A stretch of 64,000 nucleotides of DNA from Leadbetterella byssophila DSM 17132 (GTDB lineage: Bacteria > Bacteroidota > Bacteroidia > Cytophagales > Spirosomataceae): positions 310,001 through 374,000 of the forward strand of contig NC_014655.1 in NCBI RefSeq assembly GCF_000166395.1, given 5' to 3'. A program made the translations under genes and the position numbers. How positions within the stretch are numbered: the stretch's first letter is position 1; each line of letters begins with the position of its first letter. The notes under the pieces were generated by a model that was given only the letters and a program-made list of their open reading frames with translations, searched no databases and was not told the DNA's origin. Shown piece by piece: positions 28,121 to 42,908 of the stretch.

Positions 28121-28194
28121 GGTCCTATAGCTCAGTTGGTTAGAGCACCTGACTCATAATCAGGTGGTCCCTGGTTCGAGCCCAGGTGGGACCA
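28121..28194 (+). tRNA. tRNA with CAT anticodon (Met elongator or Ile2)
   Basis: A full cloverleaf can be drawn: acceptor GGTCCTA/TGGGACC, D-arm TAGCTCAGTTGGTTAGAGC, anticodon arm CCTGA-CTCATAA-TCAGG, T-arm CCTGG-TTCGAGC-CCAGG, discriminator A. CCA is not encoded. A CAT anticodon can belong to elongator Met or to Ile2 (lysidine-modified). The CTCATAA loop occurs in both, so I leave the identity open, with Met slightly favoured by the D-arm. An accessory region begins just beyond it. Confidence 0.95.
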
Positions 28195-34118: not shown

Positions 34119-34985
34119 TTAGGACATAGTATAATTAAACAAAGATATTGATTTATTGTTCTTCCAGCAGGGGGAGCTAGCTCCCCCTGCTGGAAATGAA
34201 GTGCTCAAATTTTTAAACTTTTCCGGGGTGAATCCTCCTAGCGATTCATGCGGTCTTTGGGTATGATAATCCTTCATAAATTCTTCTGCCAGGATTCTGA
34301 CCTGATGGATATTTTCAAACACATAAGCGTCCAGTATAGATGCTCTAAAAGTTCGGTTAAAACGTTATCCATTCTGAAAGGGCTTTCCGGGCTGGATATA
34401 AAGGAGTCTGATGTCATTCTCTCTACACCAGTCAGCCAACACATTTGCAATAAATTCAGGGCCGTTATCAACTCTGATTTGGGTAGGCTTACCTCTATAT
34501 GCGATTAGATCCTCCAGACTTTGAACTACCATGTTCGACTGTATACTGAAATGAGCCTCTACGGTCAGAGCTTCCCGGTTATAATCAGCGATGATATTCA
34601 AAATTCTGATCTTCCGGCCATTGCCAAGAACATCATGCATGAAGTCCATGCTCCAAGTATGATTGATGCCTTCCGGCTGAATCAACGGTACTTTAACACG
34701 TGCAGGAAGCCTCTTGCGAGTCTTTTGACGAAGGTTTAGACCCAATAGAAGGTAAATCCTGCGGACACGCTTGTAATTCCATTTAAGGCCCTGATTCCGT
34801 ATCCTTTGATACATCTTATCCTGACCCTCCTTCGGATGATTTTCGGCTAGACCTAGTAGCTTTCCTCTTACTTCTGTATCGTCTTTTACAGAAGAATAGT
34901 AATAAACGGAACGACTTAAATCCATGATCTTACAGGCCTTTTGAATGCTCATGCCATACTCGTTTACGATATAATTCACCACCAC
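34119..34985 (-). pseudogene. IS3 orfB (DDE transposase), in-frame stop
   Basis: OrfB shows the IS3 integrase core: 'HTWSMDFMHDVLGNGRKIRILNIIADYNREALTVEAHFSIQ' (first Asp), 'PTQIRVDNGPEFIANVLADWC' (second Asp), and 'YHTQRPHESLGGFTPEKFK' beyond the Glu. After 'IQPGKPFQNG' a TAA (34365-34367) stops translation, and the same frame continues 'RFNRTFRASILDAYVFENIHQ'. Compared with the usual 'QNGyvERFNRTF', two residues are missing and a stop is left, consistent with a 6-base deletion. The catalytic Glu region lies past or at the break, so the enzyme should be inactive. Confidence 0.85.
34162..34195. repeat. Perfect 34-bp palindrome inside the IS3 orfB end
   Basis: A perfect inverted repeat with no spacer, half-site TTCCAGCAGGGGGAGCT (17 bp). 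It sits in the last codons of orfB, about 60 bp from the IS end. It can form a long GC-rich hairpin on either strand and may block transcription through the element. It has no T-run, so a classic terminator is not certain. Confidence 0.75.
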
Positions 34986-35002
34986 TCGCTTTTCAAAAGG
35001 CC

Positions 35003-35269
35003 CTAAAACTTTTTTGATAGTACGTCCTTGAGAACGGCGTGATCCAGGGCTAGATCAGCATACATCTTCTTTAATCTGGCATTCTCCTGTTGAAGAGATT
35101 TTAGTTCTGCCAGATCCGTCCCACTCATCCCTGAATACTTCTTCTTCCAGTTATGGAAAGTGGCTTTGTGAATATTTAATTCCCGGCAGATGTCTTCTAC
35201 CTTACGACCGTTCTCGTACTCTCCGAGTACTTTCACAATCTGATGTTCTGAGTGCTTACTCTTTTTCAT
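35003..35269 (-). CDS. IS3-family orfA (helix-turn-helix protein)
   Basis: The 88-residue OrfA has the HTH 'HSEHQIVKVLGEYENGRKVEDICRELNIHKATFHNWKKKYSG' followed by a leucine-zipper-like coiled coil ('LAELKSLQQENARLKKMYADLALDHAVLKDVLSKK'). Near its end the run C AAA AAA G (35009-35015) is the A6G slippery heptamer used by IS3 elements for -1 frameshifting into orfB. In that frame translation would continue KKVLGPFEKRVVVNYIVNEYG. OrfA itself is intact. Confidence 0.88.
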   Translation of the reverse strand: MKKSKHSEHQIVKVLGEYENGRKVEDICRELNIHKATFHNWKKKYSGMSGTDLAELKSLQQENARLKKMYADLALDHAVLKDVLSKKF

Positions 35270-35743: not shown

Positions 35744-35768
35744 TATTGGACTAAAATGTCCACTATTT
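35744..35768 (-). promoter_or_regulatory. Putative Rrf2 operator, site 1
   Basis: Read on the minus strand the 25 bp are AAATAGTGGACA, then six bases, then TCCAATA. The core TGGAC...GTCCA is an inverted repeat. A second copy with 21 of 25 identical bases lies upstream of the oxidase gene (36255-36279). This copy covers the -33 region of the Rrf2 gene promoter, as expected for autorepression. Confidence 0.75.
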
Positions 35769-35780
35769 AAGAAAGGTAGT

Positions 35781-35788
35781 TATCTTTG
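35781..35788 (+). promoter_or_regulatory. -7 promoter element of the Rrf2 gene
   Basis: TATCTTTG matches the TAnnTTTG consensus, 20 bp before the Rrf2 ATG. The region where a -33 element is expected is occupied by the putative operator. Confidence 0.6.
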
Positions 35789-35807
35789 CATCGATAAAAA
35801 GAAAAAT

Positions 35808-36242
35808 ATGTTTTCAAAGGCTTGTGAGTACGGCATTAGAGCTGCAATATATATAGCTCAACAATCGCTTGTTGATCGTAAGGTCAGCCTAAAAGATGTT
35901 GCCAAGGCAATTGAATCTCCAACAGCTTATACTTCAAAAATTCTTCAAAAACTTTCTAAGAATAGTATTATCAAGTCAGACAAAGGGCCTACGGGTGGTT
36001 TTTCAATGGATAAAACAGAATTGGAAAAAGTAAAATTGTGTTCTATTGTTTATGCTATTGATGGTGATGCGGTTTATACTGGATGTGGTTTAGGTTTAAA
36101 AAAATGCAATGAAAACAAACCTTGTCCTGTGCATAATCAATTTAAATTAATCAGAGAAGAACTTAAAAAAATGCTTGAAACTACAACTGTAAAAACCTTA
36201 GCAACTGATTTTGAGAAGGGCTTAACATTTTTAAAGCGGTAA
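35808..36242 (+). CDS. Rrf2-family regulator (likely Fe-S, NO/redox sensor)
   Basis: The 144-residue Rrf2 protein has an N-terminal winged helix ('ACEYGIRAAIYIAQQ..VSLKDVAKAIESPTAYTSKILQKLSKNSIIKSDKGPTGGFSM'). Three cysteines sit in 'GCGLGLKKCNENKPCPVH' (C-x6-C-x5-C), the place where IscR and NsrR bind an Fe-S cluster. It heads the oxidase/NO-defence gene set. Two near-identical sites lie before it and before the next gene, so it probably represses itself and the operon until NO, O2 or iron status changes the cluster. The ligand is an inference from family and context. Confidence 0.88.
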   Translation: MFSKACEYGIRAAIYIAQQSLVDRKVSLKDVAKAIESPTAYTSKILQKLSKNSIIKSDKGPTGGFSMDKTELEKVKLCSIVYAIDGDAVYTGCGLGLKKCNENKPCPVHNQFKLIREELKKMLETTTVKTLATDFEKGLTFLKR

Positions 36243-36254
36243 AAAAATTTGAAC

Positions 36255-36279
36255 AAATAGTGGACAAATTTATCCAATA
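36255..36279 (+). promoter_or_regulatory. Putative Rrf2 operator, site 2
   Basis: AAATAGTGGACA, six bases, TCCAATA on the plus strand, 21 of 25 positions identical to site 1. It lies between the Rrf2 stop and the ATG of the oxidase subunit at 36290, only 10 bp before it, so the operon can be controlled separately from the regulator. Confidence 0.75.
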
Positions 36280-36289
36280 CATATAAAAA

Positions 36290-38041
36290 ATGGAACCAAA
36301 AAATTTATTCAGCGAATCGGGCATCATCATCACACTATTACTGATAGCAATACCTATAATTGTTGCGTCAATATTGGTAATCATTAAAGCAAAGAAAGTT
36401 CTCAAGAATTTCTTAAAGAAAAAAGAACTCGAAAAATTCAATGAATATATCAAGAACTTAAGTCCCGAAGAAGTTCAAAAATTAGAGCTTCGAAAAAAGC
36501 AACTTGAATTTTCTCTTTCTAATAATGAATTAGCAGGCGATACAACACCTATTGATGCAAAAGGTTTGATTGATAATGTGAGGGAAGCGAGTTCATTGCG
36601 ATTTATTGAGCAAAAGAAAAAAAGTCAAGCAAGACCTTACATTGAACCCGATTTAACCAAACTTATTCTATGGTATTTGGGTTGTGCCACTTTTTGGTTA
36701 TTGTTCGGCACTACGGTTGGCGAATATGTTGGAATCAAATTTGTTGCTCCTGATGTTGACCATTACAGTTGGTTAAGCTTTGGCAGATTACGACCTGTAC
36801 ATACCAATGCCGTATTTTGGGGTTGGGCTTCATTGGCAATGTTGGGCTTAGCTTATTATGTCATACCAAGAGTGAGCAATGTGCCAATTGCAAGTATTAA
36901 AACAGGCTATAGAACCCTCATTCTCGTAAATGCTTCGGTTATTCTTGGAAGTTTGTTTTTAATGGCAGGCATCAACAATGGTGGCGGTGAATACCGAGAA
37001 TACATTTGGCCAGTAATGGCGTTGTTTGGTATTGCAGTTATCATTTCACTACGAAATTTTTATAAAACCATAGCCAAAAGAACAACCAAAGAAATTTATG
37101 TTTCCAATTGGTACATTATTTCCGCAATGATGTTTCTACTGGTGATTGCCGTAATTGCGTATTGGCCAAGTTGGCAAAATGGCTTAGGCGAAACAATTAT
37201 ACAAGGTTACTATATGCACCAAGGTGTGGGTATGTGGTTTATGCTTTTCAATCTTGGATTGATGTATTACTTCCTTCCTCAACAATTAAACAAGCCCATT
37301 TATTCATATAGTTTAGGAATATTGGCGTTTTGGATTCAAATCCTGTTTTATACTTTAATAGGAACGCATCATTTTATTTTTAGTGCAATACCTTGGTGGT
37401 TGCAGACTGTTGCCATTGTTGGTAGTGCAGGAATGGTAATACCTGTTGTTGCAGGTACTACAAACTTTTTAATGACTTTTAAAGGTTCTTGGCATAAACT
37501 TTCAGGTAGCTATACCTTACCGTTTTATTTGATTGGTATTATCTTCTACTTTACAGGCTCATTACAAGGAACTGCCGAAGCCTTCAAGTTTACCAATTTA
37601 ATATGGCACTTTACCGATTTTACCGTAGCCCATTCGCACCTTACAATGTATGGTATCATCTGTTTTATGCTTTGGGGCTTCATATATACCGTTGTGCCAA
37701 GATTGACCGGAAATGAACCGCCTCAAATTACGGTAGGTGCTCATTTTTGGTTGGCATTAATTGGATTGCTGTTCTATACATTCCCTTTAATGTATGGTTC
37801 AACACTAAGGGGGCTGATGTGGATGGAAGGTACTAAATCATTTATTGAAAGTGTAGAATTGATGGCTCCCTATTGGTTATGGCGTGCCATTGGTGGCTCT
37901 TTGATGTGGCTTTCTCACATTTTGTTTGCCTACAATTTTTATGTTATGGTAAAAAAGAAAGAAGAAATAGAAATACCAAGCTCCCCCAAAGACATTCTAA
38001 ATGCAAAGGTTGCACTGGACAATCAAGAAGTAACAAATTAA
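36290..38041 (+). CDS. ccoN: cbb3-type cytochrome c oxidase catalytic subunit (CcoN-like), N-terminally extended
   Basis: The 583-residue heme-copper oxidase subunit has about 12 core helices plus an extra N-terminal helix and a ~90-residue charged linker (residues 1-115). Ligands can be placed: His171 (RPVHTNAV) and His450 for the low-spin heme, His448 (AHSH) for the active-site heme, and His310, His360 and His361 for CuB. Tyr354, six residues before the HH pair and 44 after His310, fits the cross-linked Tyr of cbb3 oxidases. That suggests O2 reduction rather than a dedicated NO reductase, though cbb3 enzymes can also reduce NO. Neither gene neighbour is a separate CcoP, CcoQ or assembly gene. 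It precedes the cytochrome c gene by 10 bp. Confidence 0.88.
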   Translation: MEPKNLFSESGIIITLLLIAIPIIVASILVIIKAKKVLKNFLKKKELEKFNEYIKNLSPEEVQKLELRKKQLEFSLSNNELAGDTTPIDAKGLIDNVREASSLRFIEQKKKSQARPYIEPDLTKLILWYLGCATFWLLFGTTVGEYVGIKFVAPDVDHYSWLSFGRLRPVHTNAVFWGWASLAMLGLAYYVIPRVSNVPIASIKTGYRTLILVNASVILGSLFLMAGINNGGGEYREYIWPVMALFGIAVIISLRNFYKTIAKRTTKEIYVSNWYIISAMMFLLVIAVIAYWPSWQNGLGETIIQGYYMHQGVGMWFMLFNLGLMYYFLPQQLNKPIYSYSLGILAFWIQILFYTLIGTHHFIFSAIPWWLQTVAIVGSAGMVIPVVAGTTNFLMTFKGSWHKLSGSYTLPFYLIGIIFYFTGSLQGTAEAFKFTNLIWHFTDFTVAHSHLTMYGIICFMLWGFIYTVVPRLTGNEPPQITVGAHFWLALIGLLFYTFPLMYGSTLRGLMWMEGTKSFIESVELMAPYWLWRAIGGSLMWLSHILFAYNFYVMVKKKEEIEIPSSPKDILNAKVALDNQEVTN

Positions 38042-38051
38042 TATATACGAA

Positions 38052-39059
38052 ATGGATTTTTTCGACAATCATAAAAAACTGTTCAGAACGGCACTGGGGC
38101 TATTTGTTGGGCTAACAATTATTGTTGCCATAATGCCTGCCATAAATAATCAGGAAAATAATTCTCCTTTGCCCGGATATGAGCCATTGAGTCAAGAAGC
38201 CTATCTCGGTAAAAAAGTTTTTATTGCCAACGGATGTGTGGCTTGCCATACACAGCAGGTGAGAAATGTGGAGATGGATAATATTTGGGGCAACAGACCC
38301 GGAATACCAGCCGATTATGCTGGCATTTCGAGAACAGATTTTTGGACAAATACCGCTACATTAATGGGAACAGAAAGAACCGGTCCGGATTTGACCAATA
38401 TCGGTTCAAGACAACCAAGTTTAGCTTGGAACTTATTACATCTCTTTCAGCCCAGAGCCGTAGTAGAAAAATCAATAATGCCAGCCTACCCTTGGCTATT
38501 TGAAGTGAAAAATGAGTTAGGCGAAAAAGATGTTGAAGTAGTAGTTCCTGATGCGTATAGAAAAGGTATTAATGGAAAAATTATTGCCACGCAAGAAGCA
38601 CTCCATTTAGTAGCATATCTGCAAAGCCTTAAACAAACACCTTTGCCTGACGGAAAAACACCAATGGAATTTTTGTACAAGAAAAAAGAAATGCCAGTGG
38701 TGATAAACGAAAATAGCACCAAACTTCCTGACGGAAAATTATTGTACACAAACAATTGTATGAGTTGCCATCAAGCCAATGGCGAAGGACTAAAAGGTGC
38801 ATTCCCTCCTTTAAAAGGAAGCCCGATAGTTTTGGGTGATGACCTTGAATTATTTGTCAATATTATAATGCTTGGTTATGATGCCAGACCAGAATATGCT
38901 GTGATGAATGCAGTTGGCTTGGATAATAACTTAACTCCAGAAGAAGTTACAGCCATTATTAATCACGAAAAAACCAGTTGGGGCAATAATGCCAAAACGG
39001 TAACTCCTGAAGAAGTGAAAAAAATAATGGATTTTATAAAATTAACATCGAACAAATAA
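38052..39059 (+). CDS. FixO-type cytochrome c subunit fused to a second cytochrome c domain
   Basis: The 335-residue protein has one N-terminal membrane helix (about residues 10-30). A CcoO/FixO-like domain follows, with heme motif 'NGCVACHTQQVR' (C62-x-x-C65-H66), 'GTERTGPDLTNIGSR' and 'MPAYPWLF' (Met ligand). A class I cytochrome c domain near residue 235 has 'NNCMSCHQANGEGLKGAFPPLKGSP'. The second domain probably replaces the missing separate CcoP subunit. It should pass electrons from periplasmic donors to the catalytic subunit encoded just upstream. Confidence 0.88.
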   Translation: MDFFDNHKKLFRTALGLFVGLTIIVAIMPAINNQENNSPLPGYEPLSQEAYLGKKVFIANGCVACHTQQVRNVEMDNIWGNRPGIPADYAGISRTDFWTNTATLMGTERTGPDLTNIGSRQPSLAWNLLHLFQPRAVVEKSIMPAYPWLFEVKNELGEKDVEVVVPDAYRKGINGKIIATQEALHLVAYLQSLKQTPLPDGKTPMEFLYKKKEMPVVINENSTKLPDGKLLYTNNCMSCHQANGEGLKGAFPPLKGSPIVLGDDLELFVNIIMLGYDARPEYAVMNAVGLDNNLTPEEVTAIINHEKTSWGNNAKTVTPEEVKKIMDFIKLTSNK

Positions 39060-39063
39060 CAAG

Positions 39064-39324
39064 ATGAAAGTAAAATATCTCATATCTGTACTTGTCATTT
39101 TTATAGCTCAAATTGCTATCGCTTGCCCTGTGTGCGAAAAGCAACAACCTAAAATAACACAAGGGTTAACCCACGGAGTAGGACCGCAAAGTAATTGGGA
39201 TTGGGTAATCATTGCCATTATTTCGCTTATCACGGTTTTGACCTTGATTTACTCAATAAAATATCTGATAAAACCCGGTGAGAAAAACAATGACCATATC
39301 AAACAATCAATCTTAAGAAATTAA
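39064..39324 (+). CDS. Small membrane protein with CPVC motif
   Basis: The 86-residue product has a signal-like N-terminus (MKVKYLISVLVIFIAQIAIA), a 'CPVCEKQQPKITQG' motif right after it, and a C-terminal membrane helix ('WVIIAIISLITVLTLIYSIKYLI'). The two cysteines could bind metal or act in thiol chemistry, perhaps helping copper or heme insertion. This is inferred from position. It lies 4 bp after the cytochrome gene and 5 bp before the next. Confidence 0.65.
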   Translation: MKVKYLISVLVIFIAQIAIACPVCEKQQPKITQGLTHGVGPQSNWDWVIIAIISLITVLTLIYSIKYLIKPGEKNNDHIKQSILRN

Positions 39325-39329
39325 ATAAG

Positions 39330-39734
39330 ATGGAAGAATATAAAAGCAAAATCAAACTTTTTTTGGATGATGAACAACAACCCATTGCGGAGTTGGTTCC
39401 ACCTGTACAATTTGATTTGGACACAAGCAAATTAACGGATGGAGAGCATACCTTAAAACTCATTAGCAAATCTCCCACAGGCAGAGAAGGTATTCGAAAA
39501 ATAAAATTTATTGTCAAAAATGGTCCAGCTATTTCGGTAGAAGGATTGAGTGATAATGGCGTTGTTGATGGAGTTATTCCGCTCATGATTAATGCTTATG
39601 ACAAAGGAAATCAAAAGAAATTTTTCATTGAAGGAAGTGAAACCCCGCAGAGTATCCCGAGTTGGCTTTGGATCTTGCTTGTTGCTTTTTTGGGTTGGGC
39701 AGCTTTTTATACCATCACAAATTTTAGTTTATAA
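39330..39734 (+). CDS. Tail-anchored Ig-like protein of the oxidase operon
   Basis: The 134-residue protein has an Ig/FixH-like beta domain ('VPPVQFDLDTSKLTDGEHTLKLISKSPTGREGIRKIKFIVKNGPAISVEGL') and one C-terminal membrane helix ('SWLWILLVAFLGWAAFYTITNF'). It has no signal peptide that I can see, so topology is uncertain. Being inside the oxidase operon it is probably an accessory or assembly protein, but no function is known to me. Confidence 0.6.
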   Translation: MEEYKSKIKLFLDDEQQPIAELVPPVQFDLDTSKLTDGEHTLKLISKSPTGREGIRKIKFIVKNGPAISVEGLSDNGVVDGVIPLMINAYDKGNQKKFFIEGSETPQSIPSWLWILLVAFLGWAAFYTITNFSL

Positions 39735-39755
39735 TTCAACAAAGAACAATTAAAA

Positions 39756-40006
39756 ATGGAAAATAAGGAAATTTGGTTAGAAACCTTAATCACAAACTCG
39801 CCCCAAGAAGGTCGAGAACTAGCTATAAAAATGGCAAGAAAATCTATTGCGGCCATACAAACAGATACCGAAATAAGCTACGAAACGATTATGCCAATGA
39901 TACTGCACAACTCATTGCCTCTGCCAATGTAGTTGCCATAGAGTTTCAAACCATTGCAGCAGCTAATAATTATTGGAAAACAGAAAATGAATTTAGAAAT
40001 GATTGA
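39756..40006 (+). pseudogene. Small helical protein gene with one frameshift
   Basis: From ATG 39756 the frame gives MENKEIWLETLITNSPQEGRELAIKMARKSIAAIQTDTEISYE. It then needs a shift of one base (a missing A near 39890, in GAAACG) to continue NDYANDTAQLIASANVVAIEFQTIAAANNYWKTENEFRND. The joined product of about 83 residues looks like one helical protein. Unshifted, it stops 15 codons later. Either true decay or a homopolymer sequencing error would explain it. The family is unknown. Confidence 0.6.
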
Positions 40007-40385
40007 CATAATAAATCTTGATGATGTAAAATTGGTAGTGGATTGTTTCTACGATAAAGTTCGTAATGATAAACAATTGAAAGATGTTTTCAATGATGTT
40101 ATTCAAGACCGTTGGCCAGCACATTTAGAAAAAATGTACCGTTTTTGGCAAACGGTTTTGTTGGATGAACACACCTACTACGGTAGTCCGTTTTTACCAC
40201 ACGCCAAACTTCCTGTTGGCATTGAACATTTCAATCAATGGTTAAAATTGTTTTACGAAACTGTTGATGAAAACTTTGCAGGAGAAAAAGCAGAACGTAT
40301 GAAATGGCAAGGGCAACGTATGGCAGAAATGTTTCATTCAAAAATAGAGTATTACAAAAATAATCCTTCAATCCCATTGCTATGA
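39987..40385 (+). CDS. Group III truncated hemoglobin
   Basis: The 132-residue globin fits group III trHb: 'DVKLVVDCFYDKVRNDKQLKDVFNDVI..DRWPAHLEKMYRFWQTVLL', 'YYGSPFLPHAKLPVGIEHFNQWLKLFYETVDENFAGEKAERMKWQGQRMAEMFHSKI'. The His in 'FLPHAKL' or 'EHFNQW' is the heme ligand region, and Trp in 'QWLKLF' is conserved. Such globins are linked to NO and nitrosative-stress handling. The start could also be the Met four residues later. It overlaps the previous and next genes slightly. Confidence 0.9.
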   Translation: MNLEMIDIINLDDVKLVVDCFYDKVRNDKQLKDVFNDVIQDRWPAHLEKMYRFWQTVLLDEHTYYGSPFLPHAKLPVGIEHFNQWLKLFYETVDENFAGEKAERMKWQGQRMAEMFHSKIEYYKNNPSIPLL

Positions 40386-40825
40386 CAGTAGTAAAAATGC
40401 CCATAGCTCTTATTTCCACTTTCGTTTGGATAGGGTTTATCTGTGCTATCAGTTTTATGGAAGCCTGGTTGAAGTTTCGTGCTCCTGGCATTACTGTGCC
40501 TTTAGGCTTGGGCATTGGCAGATTGGTTTTTAATGCCCTCAATAAAGTTGAATTGGTGTTTGCTCTGGCTGTCATCATCAATATTTTTTGGAATTATTCA
40601 GATATTCTGAAATGGAAAAACCTAGCTTTTGCAATACCTCTAACGCTTTTATTTATACAAACATTTTGGCTCCTACCTGCACTGGATGCACGAGCAGAAT
40701 TATATATACAAGGTCAAATTGTACCTCCTTCCAATCTGCATTTTTATTATGTAGGCATAGAACTAGTTAAAGTAGCGAGTCTAACATTTTTTGGTTTAAC
40801 ACTTTTTAAAAACACACCAACATGA
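40382..40825 (+). CDS. Four-helix membrane protein of NO/oxidase operon
   Basis: The 147-residue protein has four hydrophobic helices ('ALISTFVWIGFICAISFMEAWL', 'KVELVFALAVIINIFWNY', 'NLAFAIPLTLLFIQTFWLLPAL', 'YVGIELVKVASLTFFGLTLF'). It is reminiscent of DUF4149-like or heme-binding membrane proteins often next to NO-related genes. A His or Trp lies in several helices ('SNLHFYY'). Function unknown. It overlaps the globin gene by 4 bp (ATGA) and the next gene's start likewise. Confidence 0.65.
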   Translation: MTVVKMPIALISTFVWIGFICAISFMEAWLKFRAPGITVPLGLGIGRLVFNALNKVELVFALAVIINIFWNYSDILKWKNLAFAIPLTLLFIQTFWLLPALDARAELYIQGQIVPPSNLHFYYVGIELVKVASLTFFGLTLFKNTPT

Positions 40826-41619
40826 GCGATGAAAAAATAATCAATTTGATGAAAATCCCGAAACGTATCTAAAAGGTTTGCTTCGCGCCAAACCCATTAA
40901 TTACTGGGATTATGTAGAAGTAGATACACTTCTTTCACTTCAAAAAACCAAGAACTAATAATAAAGACGTAGAAATCTTTATGATGTACCATCAGGTAAA
41001 GAAACTGTTCCTCAAAATGATAGTGCGCGAAATCAAACAATTGGTCTATGACCCTTATGAAGAAAGTGTTTGGTTGGAGAAATTGGAACAATTGAATCGA
41101 TACACAAATATGCCCATTGGCTCGTTTGATGAAATGAAATACGGAATGAACTATGACTACTACAATACCTTCCGTAGTACATTGACTCCTGCTAGCGGTT
41201 TTCAATCCGTTACTTTTCGATGGATTGAAATCTATTGTACTAGACTTGAAAATCTAGTCAACGAAGAAGGCAAAAAGTCACTCACACTTCTACAGTTTGA
41301 AGAAAAATATTTAGACCGATTAATTGCTATGGCTAATAAGACCCAAGGTTCTACCTTAGAAGATAAAGTATTGAATATGCCAAATTGTTCAGATACGCTT
41401 AGAGCTAAACTAAAAGAGTTTGATCACTTGTACAACGTAGTTTGGCCACTGGTACACCTTGAAACTGCTCAACACTACCTTGACCTAAAAAATAAAAACA
41501 AAGCCGCAACTGGTGGCAACGATTGGAAAAAATATTTGCATACAAAGTTTCAACAACGAAAATTCTTCCCCACGTTGTGGAACAATGATGTAATAACGAA
41601 TTGGGAAAATAAACAATAA
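40822..41619 (+). pseudogene. Tryptophan 2,3-dioxygenase-like gene with two compensating indels
   Basis: After MSDEK a missing A in the A-run at 40832-40837 shifts the frame. The real continuation is NNQFDENPETYLKGLLRAKPINYWDYVEVDTLLSLQK. An extra A near 40940 (CAAAAAACC) then restores the first frame, giving 'TNNKDVEIFMMYHQVKKLFLKMIVREIKQLVYDPYEESVWLEKLEQLNRYT' and 'SFDEMKYGMNYDYYNTFRSTLTPASGFQSVTFRWIEIY'. The latter is the tryptophan 2,3-dioxygenase core (heme pocket 'FRSTLTPASGFQS'). An internal ATG at 40981 might give a 212-residue partial product. It is either decayed or misread. Confidence 0.78.
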
Positions 41620-41637
41620 CATATAAAACAATATAAA

Positions 41638-42366
41638 ATGAACATTCAAGAAAATAACATTATTGGTGAATTGGTGGCACAAGATTATCGTGCAGCCTCG
41701 GTTTTTAAAAAATATGGCATTGACTTTTGTTGTCAAGGCAATAGAACCATACAAGATGCGTGCGAGTCGAAAGAAATTGACGCTTCTTCAGTCGTATCAG
41801 ATTTAAACGAAGTAAGTAAAGCAACATCAGAAAACACCATTGACTATCAGTCCTGGCCTATTGACCTTATGGCAGACTACATTGAGAAAAAACATCACCG
41901 CTATGTAGAAGAAAAAACACGGGAAATAACACCTTATTTGGACAAAATTTGCCGTGTGCACGGAGACCGCCATCCTGAGTTGTTTGAAATTAATGAACAC
42001 TTTAATGCAACTGCTGGCGAATTAGCAGCACATATGAAAAAAGAAGAATTGATTTTGTTTCCATTTGTTCGCAAAATGGCAAAGGCGAAACAGGAAAACA
42101 CTAAACTAGAAGCTCCCCATTTTGGCACGGTAGAAAATCCCATTCAAATGATGATGCACGAGCACACTACCGAAGGTGAACGCTTCAGGAAAATAGAAAC
42201 CCTGAGCAATAACTATACTCCACCCGAAGATGCTTGTAATACATATAGAGTAACTTTTGCCTTGCTTAAAGAATTTGAAGCCGATTTGCATTTACACATC
42301 CACTTAGAGAACAACATTTTGTTTCCAAAAGCTATTGAGCTTGAAAAGCAATTAAAGAATGCCTAA
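41638..42366 (+). CDS. ric: Iron-sulfur cluster repair di-iron protein (Ric/YtfE/ScdA)
   Basis: The 242-residue protein has the DUF542 N-terminus with paired cysteines ('YRAASVFKKYGIDFCCQGNRTIQDAC') and a hemerythrin-like di-iron domain: 'YIEKKHHRYVEEK', 'HGDRHPELFEINEHFNATAGELAAHMKKEELILFPFVRK', 'MMMHEHTTEGERF', 'FEADLHLHIHLENNILFPKA'. All His/Glu ligands are present. Ric repairs Fe-S clusters damaged by NO or peroxide, which supports a nitrosative-stress role for this operon. The next gene starts within its last codons. Confidence 0.93.
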   Translation: MNIQENNIIGELVAQDYRAASVFKKYGIDFCCQGNRTIQDACESKEIDASSVVSDLNEVSKATSENTIDYQSWPIDLMADYIEKKHHRYVEEKTREITPYLDKICRVHGDRHPELFEINEHFNATAGELAAHMKKEELILFPFVRKMAKAKQENTKLEAPHFGTVENPIQMMMHEHTTEGERFRKIETLSNNYTPPEDACNTYRVTFALLKEFEADLHLHIHLENNILFPKAIELEKQLKNA

Positions 42367-42590
42367 TCCTATTAAAAGAAACGAAGCCCTTAAACCATTG
42401 AGCCGTGACCACCATCACGGCTTATTGCTCTGCTGGAAAATTAGGCAAGGTTTCAAACTGAATATCGAACCTGAAAGAATAAAAAAATATTAGGATTGGT
42501 TTTGGATTAGTTATTTAAAGCCTCATTTTGAAGTTGAAGAACAATATGTATTCCCTGTTTTGGGAAGTAAAAATGAATTGGTTACACAAG
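42359..42590 (+). pseudogene. Hemerythrin-domain gene, stop codon and truncation
   Basis: It begins MPNPIKRNEALKPLSRDHHHGLLLCWKIRQGFKLNIEPERIKKY, reaches a TAG at about 42491, and continues in the same frame 'DWFWISYLKPHFEVEEQYVFPVLGSKNELVTQA'. The His/Glu pattern (SRDHHHGLL, HFEVEEQYVFP) is that of a hemerythrin-like protein. After 'VTQA' the sequence changes to an IS3 transposase piece, so the C-terminal third is gone. ATG overlaps the ric gene end. Confidence 0.75.
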
Positions 42591-42908
42591 CCCGAGAAAA
42601 TTAGGTCTGACAACGGACCGGAATTTGTCGCCGAAGCTATCCGCGAATGGTGTAAGAAAAACGGCAAACAATGGGAATTTATCCAGCCTGGAAAGCCGAC
42701 ACACAACAGTTTGATCGAGCGGTTTAACAGGATATTCAGGCAGGAGGTACTGGACGGCTATAGGTTTGACAACCTCCCACAGATAATAAAATACGCAGAG
42801 GCGTGGGCATGGATGTACAACAATGAAAGGCCGCATTCCTCTTTGGGACGATTGACGCCCACTGAAAAATCAAATTGGAATTATTTAGTTTTGGGTGTAG
42901 CTAGTTAG
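42590..42908 (+). pseudogene. IS3-family orfB, C-terminal fragment
   Basis: The fragment encodes the last ~100 residues of an IS3 transposase: 'KIRSDNGPEFVAEAIREWCKKNGKQWEFIQPGKPTHNSLIERFNRIFRQEVLDGYRFDNLPQIIKYAEAWAWMYNNERPHSSLGRLTPTE', with the second Asp (SDNGPEF) and the Glu (SLIERFNR). It differs from the IS3 at 34.1-35.3 kb, so it comes from another element. Its 5' part is missing, joined to the hemerythrin gene at about 42590. No inverted repeat is evident. Confidence 0.85.

Follow-up and report, generated by a model that had tools for sequence, protein, structure and literature searches.

The window analysed here, the 64,000-nucleotide (nt) stretch of the Leadbetterella byssophila DSM 17132 genome at positions 310001-374000 of contig C1 (one contig of 4,059,653 bases), carries an operon that probably serves in defence against nitric oxide (NO) under a dedicated, self-regulating iron-sulfur (Fe-S) repressor of the Rrf2 family. 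Twin operators and their conservation, a conserved set of cluster ligands, the gene set, and genes for NO and nitrous oxide (N2O) metabolism behind like sites in other genomes were found by computation. The operon is found in many Bacteroidota; it is probably switched on when NO attacks the Fe-S repressor, its heme-copper enzyme may destroy NO, and the copy in the window is partly decayed. The regulatory elements, the regulator and the enzyme are placed as follows (aa, amino acids).

35744..35768, no strand: operator 1, a TGGAC-N6-GTCCA dyad upstream of the Rrf2 promoter box, in the same place in relatives
35781..35788, + strand: probable -7 promoter element of the Rrf2 gene (Bacteroidota box TAnnTTTG), from the sequence and a position kept in relatives
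35808..36242, + strand: Rrf2-family regulator, 144 aa, with C-x6-C-x5-C-x2-H plus Cys6 (PF02082, 86.3 bits; residue conservation)
36255..36279, no strand: operator 2, directly before the CcoN-like gene
36290..38041, + strand: CcoN-like C-family heme-copper subunit I, 583 aa, of a separate clade (PF00115; TIGR00780 under cut-off; residues; fold)

The original prediction for this DNA placed two 25-bp sites, alike at 21 of 25 bases and inverted, before the Rrf2 gene (over its -33 region) and before the cbb3-type gene. Both were recovered at the same coordinates, the 25-nt arms being inverted and complementary at 84 % of positions. The formula given for them, TGGAC-N6-TCCA, is one base off: it fits neither site in the window and matches the genome 28 times against 35 for the control, the correct form being TGGAC-N6-GTCCA (equal to TGGAC-N7-TCCA). 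In a scan of the whole 4.06-Mb genome with the consensus of the relatives, allowing up to three mismatches, just the two window sites were found, and the reversed control gave none; each of the two itself carries three mismatches to that consensus, which is the limit of the scan. Operator 1 ends 12 bases ahead of the TAnnTTTG box, which we take to be the -7 element of Bacteroidota, and therefore lies over the expected -33 region of the Rrf2 promoter. The box stands 24-29 nt ahead of the Rrf2 start codon in 47 out of 57 regions, the window included. No box of similar conservation was seen upstream of the CcoN-like gene.

Relatives of the CcoN-like protein were collected by a contig scan, which gave 212, and the best 80 of these 212 are the loci compared here (labelled L, as are other retrieved regions); many of them end at contig ends. 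Dyad conservation was assessed in the window and in those 56 of the 80 loci that had sufficient DNA and an Rrf2 gene immediately upstream; the other 24 were dropped, as was L059 for the count on the CcoN side. On the Rrf2 side the best dyad occupies the expected position in 55 out of 57 regions, 49 of them with p<=0.02 against 200 dinucleotide shuffles; on the CcoN side it does so in 48 out of 56, 31 of them with p<=0.02. These p-values are descriptions of the sites and not independent trials, because the score was designed with the GAC/GTC core already known and the loci are kin to each other. The sites are thus kept in relatives with the same operon, which was the check proposed with the original prediction, the second site less well than the first. 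Two flavours of operator were distinguished, AATAgTGGACAAATTTgTCCActATT in loci near the window and AATAAAAGAcN6gTCTTTTATT in distant loci, which differ in two bases outside GAC, at about positions 7-8 from the dyad centre. In 21 near relatives, sites of the TGGA type were matched 54 times (control, 8), those recognised being mainly operon sites. Sites of an intermediate flavour, AAnGGAy-N6-rTCCTTT, lie off the operon in near relatives (G228:C66:154348, G231:C41:6741, and G237:C29:33369).

The AAGA type was sought with up to two mismatches in 22 hand-chosen genomes of titled relatives, each palindrome being counted once, and 44 sites (the operons' own included) were found against 7 in the control. 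Twenty of the 44 site regions, chosen away from the operon, were retrieved. Twelve sites lie before or beside genes for NO or N2O metabolism, which encode Ric, hemerythrin, NosZ, NO reductase, or flavohemoglobin. DUF2249-Ric proteins are found by the site in L132 (by library scan) and in L140, L142, and L149 (by match to the Ric of the window), and a Ric-like gene in L136. In L138 the site is by a hemerythrin gene, behind a NorB-like gene. In L139 it is followed by a cytochrome c and then NosZ (TIGR04246, 943 bits), and in L141 it stands with a cytochrome c and a NosZ-like frame, as judged by eye. The site in L143 lies between a cupin gene and, 273 bases away, qNOR; behind that of L134 is an Rrf2-globin-qNOR run, by that of L144 an Rrf2-flavohemoglobin pair, and in L151 (Flavobacterium antarcticum) a NorC-like cytochrome and then a NorB-type COX1 protein follow. 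Two of the remaining regions are the operon itself, the sites being those of its own Rrf2 (L145 and L148), one site precedes a membrane protein of 428 aa without a family (L133), and nothing relevant was evident near the other five (L135, L137, L146, L147, and L150). Because like operators precede NO and N2O genes elsewhere, the regulator is most likely a repressor that responds to NO and corresponds to NsrR, and the content of the regulon makes NO its likely signal.

Membrane proteins of about 430 aa stand beside or behind operators of this type at L133:1457-2740 (-), L138:3966-5267 (+), and L132:270-1547 (-). Those of L133 and L138 are without a Pfam family and that of L132 has a short, weak CcoN-like NCBIfam match; all three are possibly further NO-related membrane proteins.

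The mechanism proposed begins with a cluster-intact Rrf2 dimer, which would sit on operator 1, over its own promoter's -33 region, and on operator 2, and hold the operon down. NO would destroy or nitrosylate the cluster and release the repressor. The membrane C-family heme-copper enzyme would then be made, fed by its own FixO-cytochrome c subunit, and with it the globin, Ric, and further proteins with heme or di-iron centres, for NO removal and Fe-S cluster repair. What we infer from the sequences is that the regulator represses, that NO is its signal, and that the enzyme acts on NO. The idea that respiration is coupled to NO handling and Fe-S repair under one Fe-S-type regulator had already been put forward for this DNA. 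Its Fe-S-type Rrf2, twin operators, NO handling, and Fe-S repair are retained, given conserved sites and like sites that lie largely before NO genes; the label of oxidase and the intact operon are not.

Several results weigh against a dedicated NO-defence operon under its own repressor. Paralogous regulators number two or three in 10 of the 16 genomes searched, six holding one (E<=1e-12), and near L132, L140, and L142 a divergent paralogue (35-41 % identity) sits at a distance of 2-5 kb from the Ric site. Because paralogues are present in those genomes, distant sites may answer to another copy. A copy of the regulator lies alongside the site in L134, L138, and L144. In favour of the operon's own regulator, however, distant sites also precede the genes named in the single-regulator genomes G218 (L139, cytochrome c-NosZ), G219 (L149, Ric), and G215 (L136, Ric-like). 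In 25 out of 56 regions operator 2 is without a dyad of p<=0.02 at the expected place. The enzyme retains the tyrosine of O2 reductases, which by the usual residue rule is contrary to a dedicated NO reductase, and the accessory genes for HTHP (hexameric tyrosine-coordinated heme protein), the tryptophan 2,3-dioxygenase (TDO)-like protein, and hemerythrin are broken in the window genome. In the host family (200 genomes, the host included) the enzyme is present in 20, and neither nosZ (4/20 against 37/180) nor qNOR (0/20 against 5/180, with a model that misses cNOR) is commoner in carriers. A single genome of the 200 has nirK, G023, a carrier that has nosZ too (1/20 carriers). The possibility that the operon supplies the missing NO-reductase step of denitrifiers in the host family is therefore not supported by the nirK, nosZ, and qNOR counts.

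The CcoN-like protein does not pass the CcoN model TIGR00780 (241.8 bits against a cut-off of 583.15). All 81 CcoN-like sequences compared retain the histidines that bind the hemes and CuB as well as the position of the cross-link tyrosine (His171, His310, His360, His361, His448, His450, and Tyr354); Tyr326, Asn392, Thr396, and Tyr420 are likewise invariant. Canonical Thr215, Ser240, His243, and Glu323, which we take to be proton-path positions and number by our own count after Pseudomonas stutzeri, are Met, Gly, Ala, and Gln in all 81, and Glu430 is new in all 81. At those four positions the canonical residues are found in the genome's own CcoN of canonical type (L084). An AlphaFold model of the protein (pLDDT 69, pTM 0.72) matches subunit N of cbb3 best (template-modelling score by target 0.83-0.86) and then cNOR (0.82 and 0.75). 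In a tree of 22 heme-copper proteins the clade groups with the genome's own CcoN and not with NorB/qNOR (96/97); this tree is weak because of long branches, the A-type row L083 being plainly misplaced, and scores and residues are preferred to it. In many of the distant loci L032-L082 the CcoN-like frame extends for about 150 codons upstream of the part that matches the window protein, which suggests an N-terminal extension.

The name of oxidase is not supported as it stands, since the protein fails the CcoN cut-off and differs at the supposed proton-path positions. A gNOR-type NO reductase, which was expected first, was rejected because Tyr354 is retained in 81/81: the Asp that replaces the active-site Tyr in gNOR is absent. 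Absent too is the FeB glutamate of cNOR and qNOR, Gly314 being found in 81/81 at what we take to be that position of NorB. The residue rule for NO reductases, gNOR included, is that of a table in PMC8756737. Authentic cbb3 enzymes are said to have a 'mandatory Glu' in PMC5492636, which also mentions the 'unknown group' that Muntyan et al. described in 2015. The E323 position, Gln in 81/81, would correspond to that Glu, and the CcoN-like clade may be that group.

The enzyme may act on NO or, as an NO-tolerant reductase, on oxygen. A cbb3 oxidase of P. stutzeri reduces NO (PMC8780969), and bifunctional cbb3 enzymes have been proposed for SAR11 (PMC12816887). NO as the substrate has somewhat under an even chance; for it speak the like sites that precede NO reductases elsewhere and a genome in which an Rrf2-globin-qNOR run takes the place of the Rrf2-CcoN-like-globin run of others. 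If instead the enzyme were an NO-tolerant oxygen reductase, it would sustain respiration while NO blocks the ordinary cbb3, the globin and Ric would remove NO and repair damage, and the regulation would be unchanged. The invariant CuB histidines and tyrosine position and the order of the fold matches, with cbb3 subunits nearest and NOR after, speak for this, as does the presence in the genome of a canonical CcoNO and of a third COX1 protein; the four supposed proton-path positions, the E323 equivalent among them, differ invariantly from canonical CcoN, however, and like operators stand before NO reductases in L134 and L151. It is a possible reading, though less likely than not. About as likely is a wider proposal, that the clade is a further, unrecognised NO reductase family derived from a C-family oxygen reductase, with the cross-link tyrosine position kept and the proton-path positions rebuilt (Gln for E323, Gly for S240, Ala for H243, Met for T215, and a new Glu430). 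It would be the Bacteroidota's own NO-detoxifying respiratory enzyme, under a distinct family of NsrR-like repressors, with residue 43 of the recognition helix setting the operator specificity.

The regulator passes the general Rrf2 model TIGR00738 (85.8 bits against a cut-off of 73.3) and fails both the NsrR model NF008240 (27.9 against 182) and the IscR model TIGR02010 (57.4 against 207.55). The motif C-x6-C-x5-C, reported for it before, was confirmed in the window protein. Across an alignment of 78 rows, with the window and some second copies in it and two unrelated Rrf2 proteins excluded beforehand, Cys93 is conserved in 77 and Cys100, Cys106, and His109 in all 78. Cys6 is found in 74/78, near-invariant at a position that we take to adjoin that of Asp8 in ScNsrR. 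The cluster ligands of ScNsrR are three Cys and Asp8 from the other subunit, with a first Cys loop of C93-C99, and those of EcIscR are three Cys and His107 (PMC5411485). The first loop of the window family is one residue longer than that of ScNsrR, and the family shares the IscR-like His after the third Cys. Another Rrf2 paralogue, divergent in sequence, is encoded several kb off the operon at L009:16001, L038:11587, L039:17701, L041:18909, L032:15778 (-), and L071:15776 (-).

An IscR-like regulator that reports the general Fe-S, redox, or iron state, with NO one of several triggers, is unlikely. It would agree with the score, nearer IscR than NsrR though both are far under cut-off, and with half-sites that resemble the IscR type 1 operator. 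The C-x2-H after the third Cys in 78/78, like IscR His107 (PMC5411485), also points that way. No Fe-S assembly protein was found, however, among those proteins behind the sites that were scanned, and the recognised ones are centred on NO and N2O.

Residue 43 of the regulator is Ala in 47 rows, Ser in 21, Gly in 8, and a gap in 2, and is not Glu. When 47 of the 78 rows were sorted by site type, Ser was found in 19/19 with TGGA-type sites, and Ala (26) or Gly (2) in the 28 with AAGA-type sites; residues 41 and 42 shift likewise. Eleven rows with mixed sites were kept apart (Ser 2, Ala or Gly 9) and the other 20 were unused. In IscR, Glu43 of the recognition helix reads bases 7-8 of the site (PMC10783083), and Val43 of Salmonella NsrR is crucial to its NO response (PMC9338935); the site positions of the window family and IscR are presumed to be equivalent. 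Because the two groups are two parts of the tree, the match between residue 43 and site could be due to descent alone.

Downstream of the CcoN-like gene, and on either side of the operon, are the following.

38052..39059, + strand: FixO-cytochrome c fusion, 335 aa, two CxxCH motifs (PF02433, PF00034)
39064..39324, + strand: small membrane protein, 86 aa, without a family, in 77/80 loci
39330..39734, + strand: 134-aa protein, beta-rich with a C-terminal helix (low-confidence model), without a family, in 76/80 loci
39756..40006, + strand: frameshifted remnant of the HTHP gene, intact in L004:12446-12697 (PF11534)
39999..40385, + strand: truncated-type globin (PF01152, 26 bits)
40382..40825, + strand: membrane protein, 147 aa, without a family (no family match)
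40822..41619, + strand: TDO-like heme protein gene, broken (comparison with L004)
41638..42366, + strand: Ric/ScdA di-iron Fe-S repair protein (TIGR03652, 254.6 bits, passing the cut-off of 204.7)
42359..42600, + strand: hemerythrin gene remnant, end approximate, intact in L004:15499-15957 (PF01814)
42591..42908, + strand: 3' remnant of an IS3-type transposase closing the operon, start approximate (PF13683/PF00665)
34365..35269, - strand: upstream of the operon, transposase genes of IS3 type, orfA and part of orfB (PF00665, PF01527)

The gene run first described from the DNA was borne out by family matches for Rrf2, the COX1/CcoN-like protein, FixO plus cytochrome c, the globin, the tryptophan-dioxygenase-like protein, and Ric, although it is damaged at the TDO-like and hemerythrin genes. 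The HTHP gene, between those of the 134-aa protein and the globin, had been overlooked; it encodes 84 aa in L004 and is frameshifted in the window. The damage was judged against L004 and L006. Relative to L004, 29 internal codons of the TDO-like gene are missing, and its 5' reading frame is lost as well. The hemerythrin gene is interrupted by an in-frame TAG (42491-42493) and then runs into the transposase remnant, so the ferredoxin-like gene that comes next in relatives is gone from the window. Part of this downstream remnant has an 85 % copy at another place in the genome. Sequencing error could have caused single frameshifts, but hardly a deletion together with a truncation. The model of the 134-aa protein (pLDDT 62) gave no structural match below E 0.001. 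Between the HTHP and globin genes of L004 (L004:12709-13026) a membrane protein of 106 aa is encoded that has no Pfam family and is missing from the window. A tRNA gene at 28121-28194 (+) is the sole Rfam match in the window at the gathering threshold.

Where it could be computed against L003-L006, the ratio of replacement to silent substitution rates (dN/dS) is 0.02-0.06 for Rrf2, CcoN, FixO-cytochrome c, the 134-aa protein, the globin, and Ric. The 86-aa and 147-aa proteins have values of 0.14-0.18. FixO-cytochrome c, the globin, and the 147-aa protein were compared with L004 alone, and one Rrf2 value was saturated. Codon changes found only in the window are 21 silent and 4 replacement in CcoN (against L003-L006), 25 and 6 in Rrf2, and 28 and 3 in Ric (both against L004 and L006). 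The count for FixO-cytochrome c was discarded, one of its two references being out of register through an indel. The low dN/dS and the surplus of silent changes indicate that purifying selection on the core acted until recently.

Among the best 80 loci, one is titled Verrucomicrobia (L025) and one 'bacterium' (L019), the others being Bacteroidota. FixO-cytochrome c is present in all 80. An Rrf2 gene is seen in 69 loci, 57 of which have it directly upstream in the same orientation. The globin was counted in 55 loci and Ric in 33, and lower numbers were obtained for the 147-aa protein (16), an HTHP piece (14), and TDO (11); these last three counts are probably too low because fused or divergent frames received one label. 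Hemerythrin and ferredoxin-like frames come next in many loci, the ferredoxin match being slightly under the Pfam cut-off. The CcoN-like protein of the operon in L025 is 75 % identical to that of the window, and this record is either a mislabelled metagenome-assembled genome (MAG) or a transfer out of the phylum. In the host genus the enzyme is found in 2 of the 9 other members, at 57 and 63 % identity, whereas the closest kin among the best 80 of 212, at 94-97 %, are in MAGs titled Bacteroidetes, Flavobacteriaceae, Chitinophagaceae, and Sphingobacteriia; the Fluviicola chungangensis enzyme is 88 % identical to that of the window. Horizontal gain of the operon is likely, being the simple reading of such close kin under mixed labels beside distant ones in the genus. 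That the operon is now a decaying, horizontally acquired relic without current use in this genome is improbable: it would fit the kinship pattern, the three broken genes, and the IS3 remnants on either side, but not the low dN/dS of the core, the 21 silent against 4 replacement changes in CcoN, or the retention of both operators.

If an NO-defence operon under its own NO-responsive repressor is the right reading, an NO sensor and an NO regulon are named for a large part of the Bacteroidota, and a C-family heme-copper clade that sequence alone would call 'cbb3 oxidase' gains a testable role. It would also bear on how NO reduction is read from metagenomes, although carriers in the sampled family almost never have nirK (1/20); in one survey, 9 % of Bacteroidota have nir and nosZ but no recognised nor (PMC12569097).

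An NsrR-like regulon is already known in kind. None of NsrR type was found for Bacteroidota in the accessible parts of the open-access literature, PMC1274295, PMC6264515, and PMC6950321 included. Neither the regulator family, nor its operators, nor their tie to the heme-copper clade was found described there, most subscription papers being outside this scope. The NO regulator of Bacteroides is given as HcpR, which is FNR-like and not Rrf2 (Rodionov et al., 2005, PMC1274295), and flavohemoglobins are called uncommon in Bacteroidetes in PMC6950321, where the accessible text names no NsrR of Bacteroidota. Clade II nos scaffolds from a sediment metagenome are enriched in Rrf2 regulators (PMC6264515), for which the accessible text gives no operator, regulon, or tie to an operon like that of the window.

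The NsrR regulons of Proteobacteria, Firmicutes, and Streptomyces have in common with the window system the Rrf2 family, three cluster Cys, self-control, and NO-stress targets, which lie at 12 of the 20 retrieved site regions besides the operon, some of these perhaps being sites of paralogues. The window family differs by C-x6-C-x5-C-x2-H plus Cys6 and an NsrR score under cut-off, and its regulator would control a C-family heme-copper operon. Among the NO-stress targets of NsrR is ytfE. Other NsrR targets include hmp and nor (PMC1274295, PMC9338935, PMC6950321), and the NsrR operator is gATGyAT-N5-ATrCATc (PMC1274295), in contrast to the GAC-N6-GTC dyad of the window family.

With IscR the window family shares membership of the Rrf2 family and the Cys3-His ligand pattern; the gene targets differ, and the GAC-GTC spacing is 6, against what we take to be 7 in IscR. 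Where IscR has Glu43 (PMC10783083), the window family has Ala, Ser, or Gly. The reductases cNOR, qNOR, and gNOR belong to the same superfamily as the CcoN-like enzyme, and like operators precede a NorC/NorB-type pair (L151) and a globin-qNOR pair (L134); the window clade has neither the FeB glutamate, at its presumed position, nor an Asp or Glu in place of the tyrosine. The cbb3 enzymes (CcoNOP) and the C family have in common with it the heme and CuB ligands, the tyrosine position, a FixO-type subunit, and the best fold matches. In contrast to CcoNOP, the window operon has no separate CcoP gene and its FixO is fused to cytochrome c, the equivalents of E323, S240, H243, and T215 are Q, G, A, and M, and Glu430 is peculiar to the clade.

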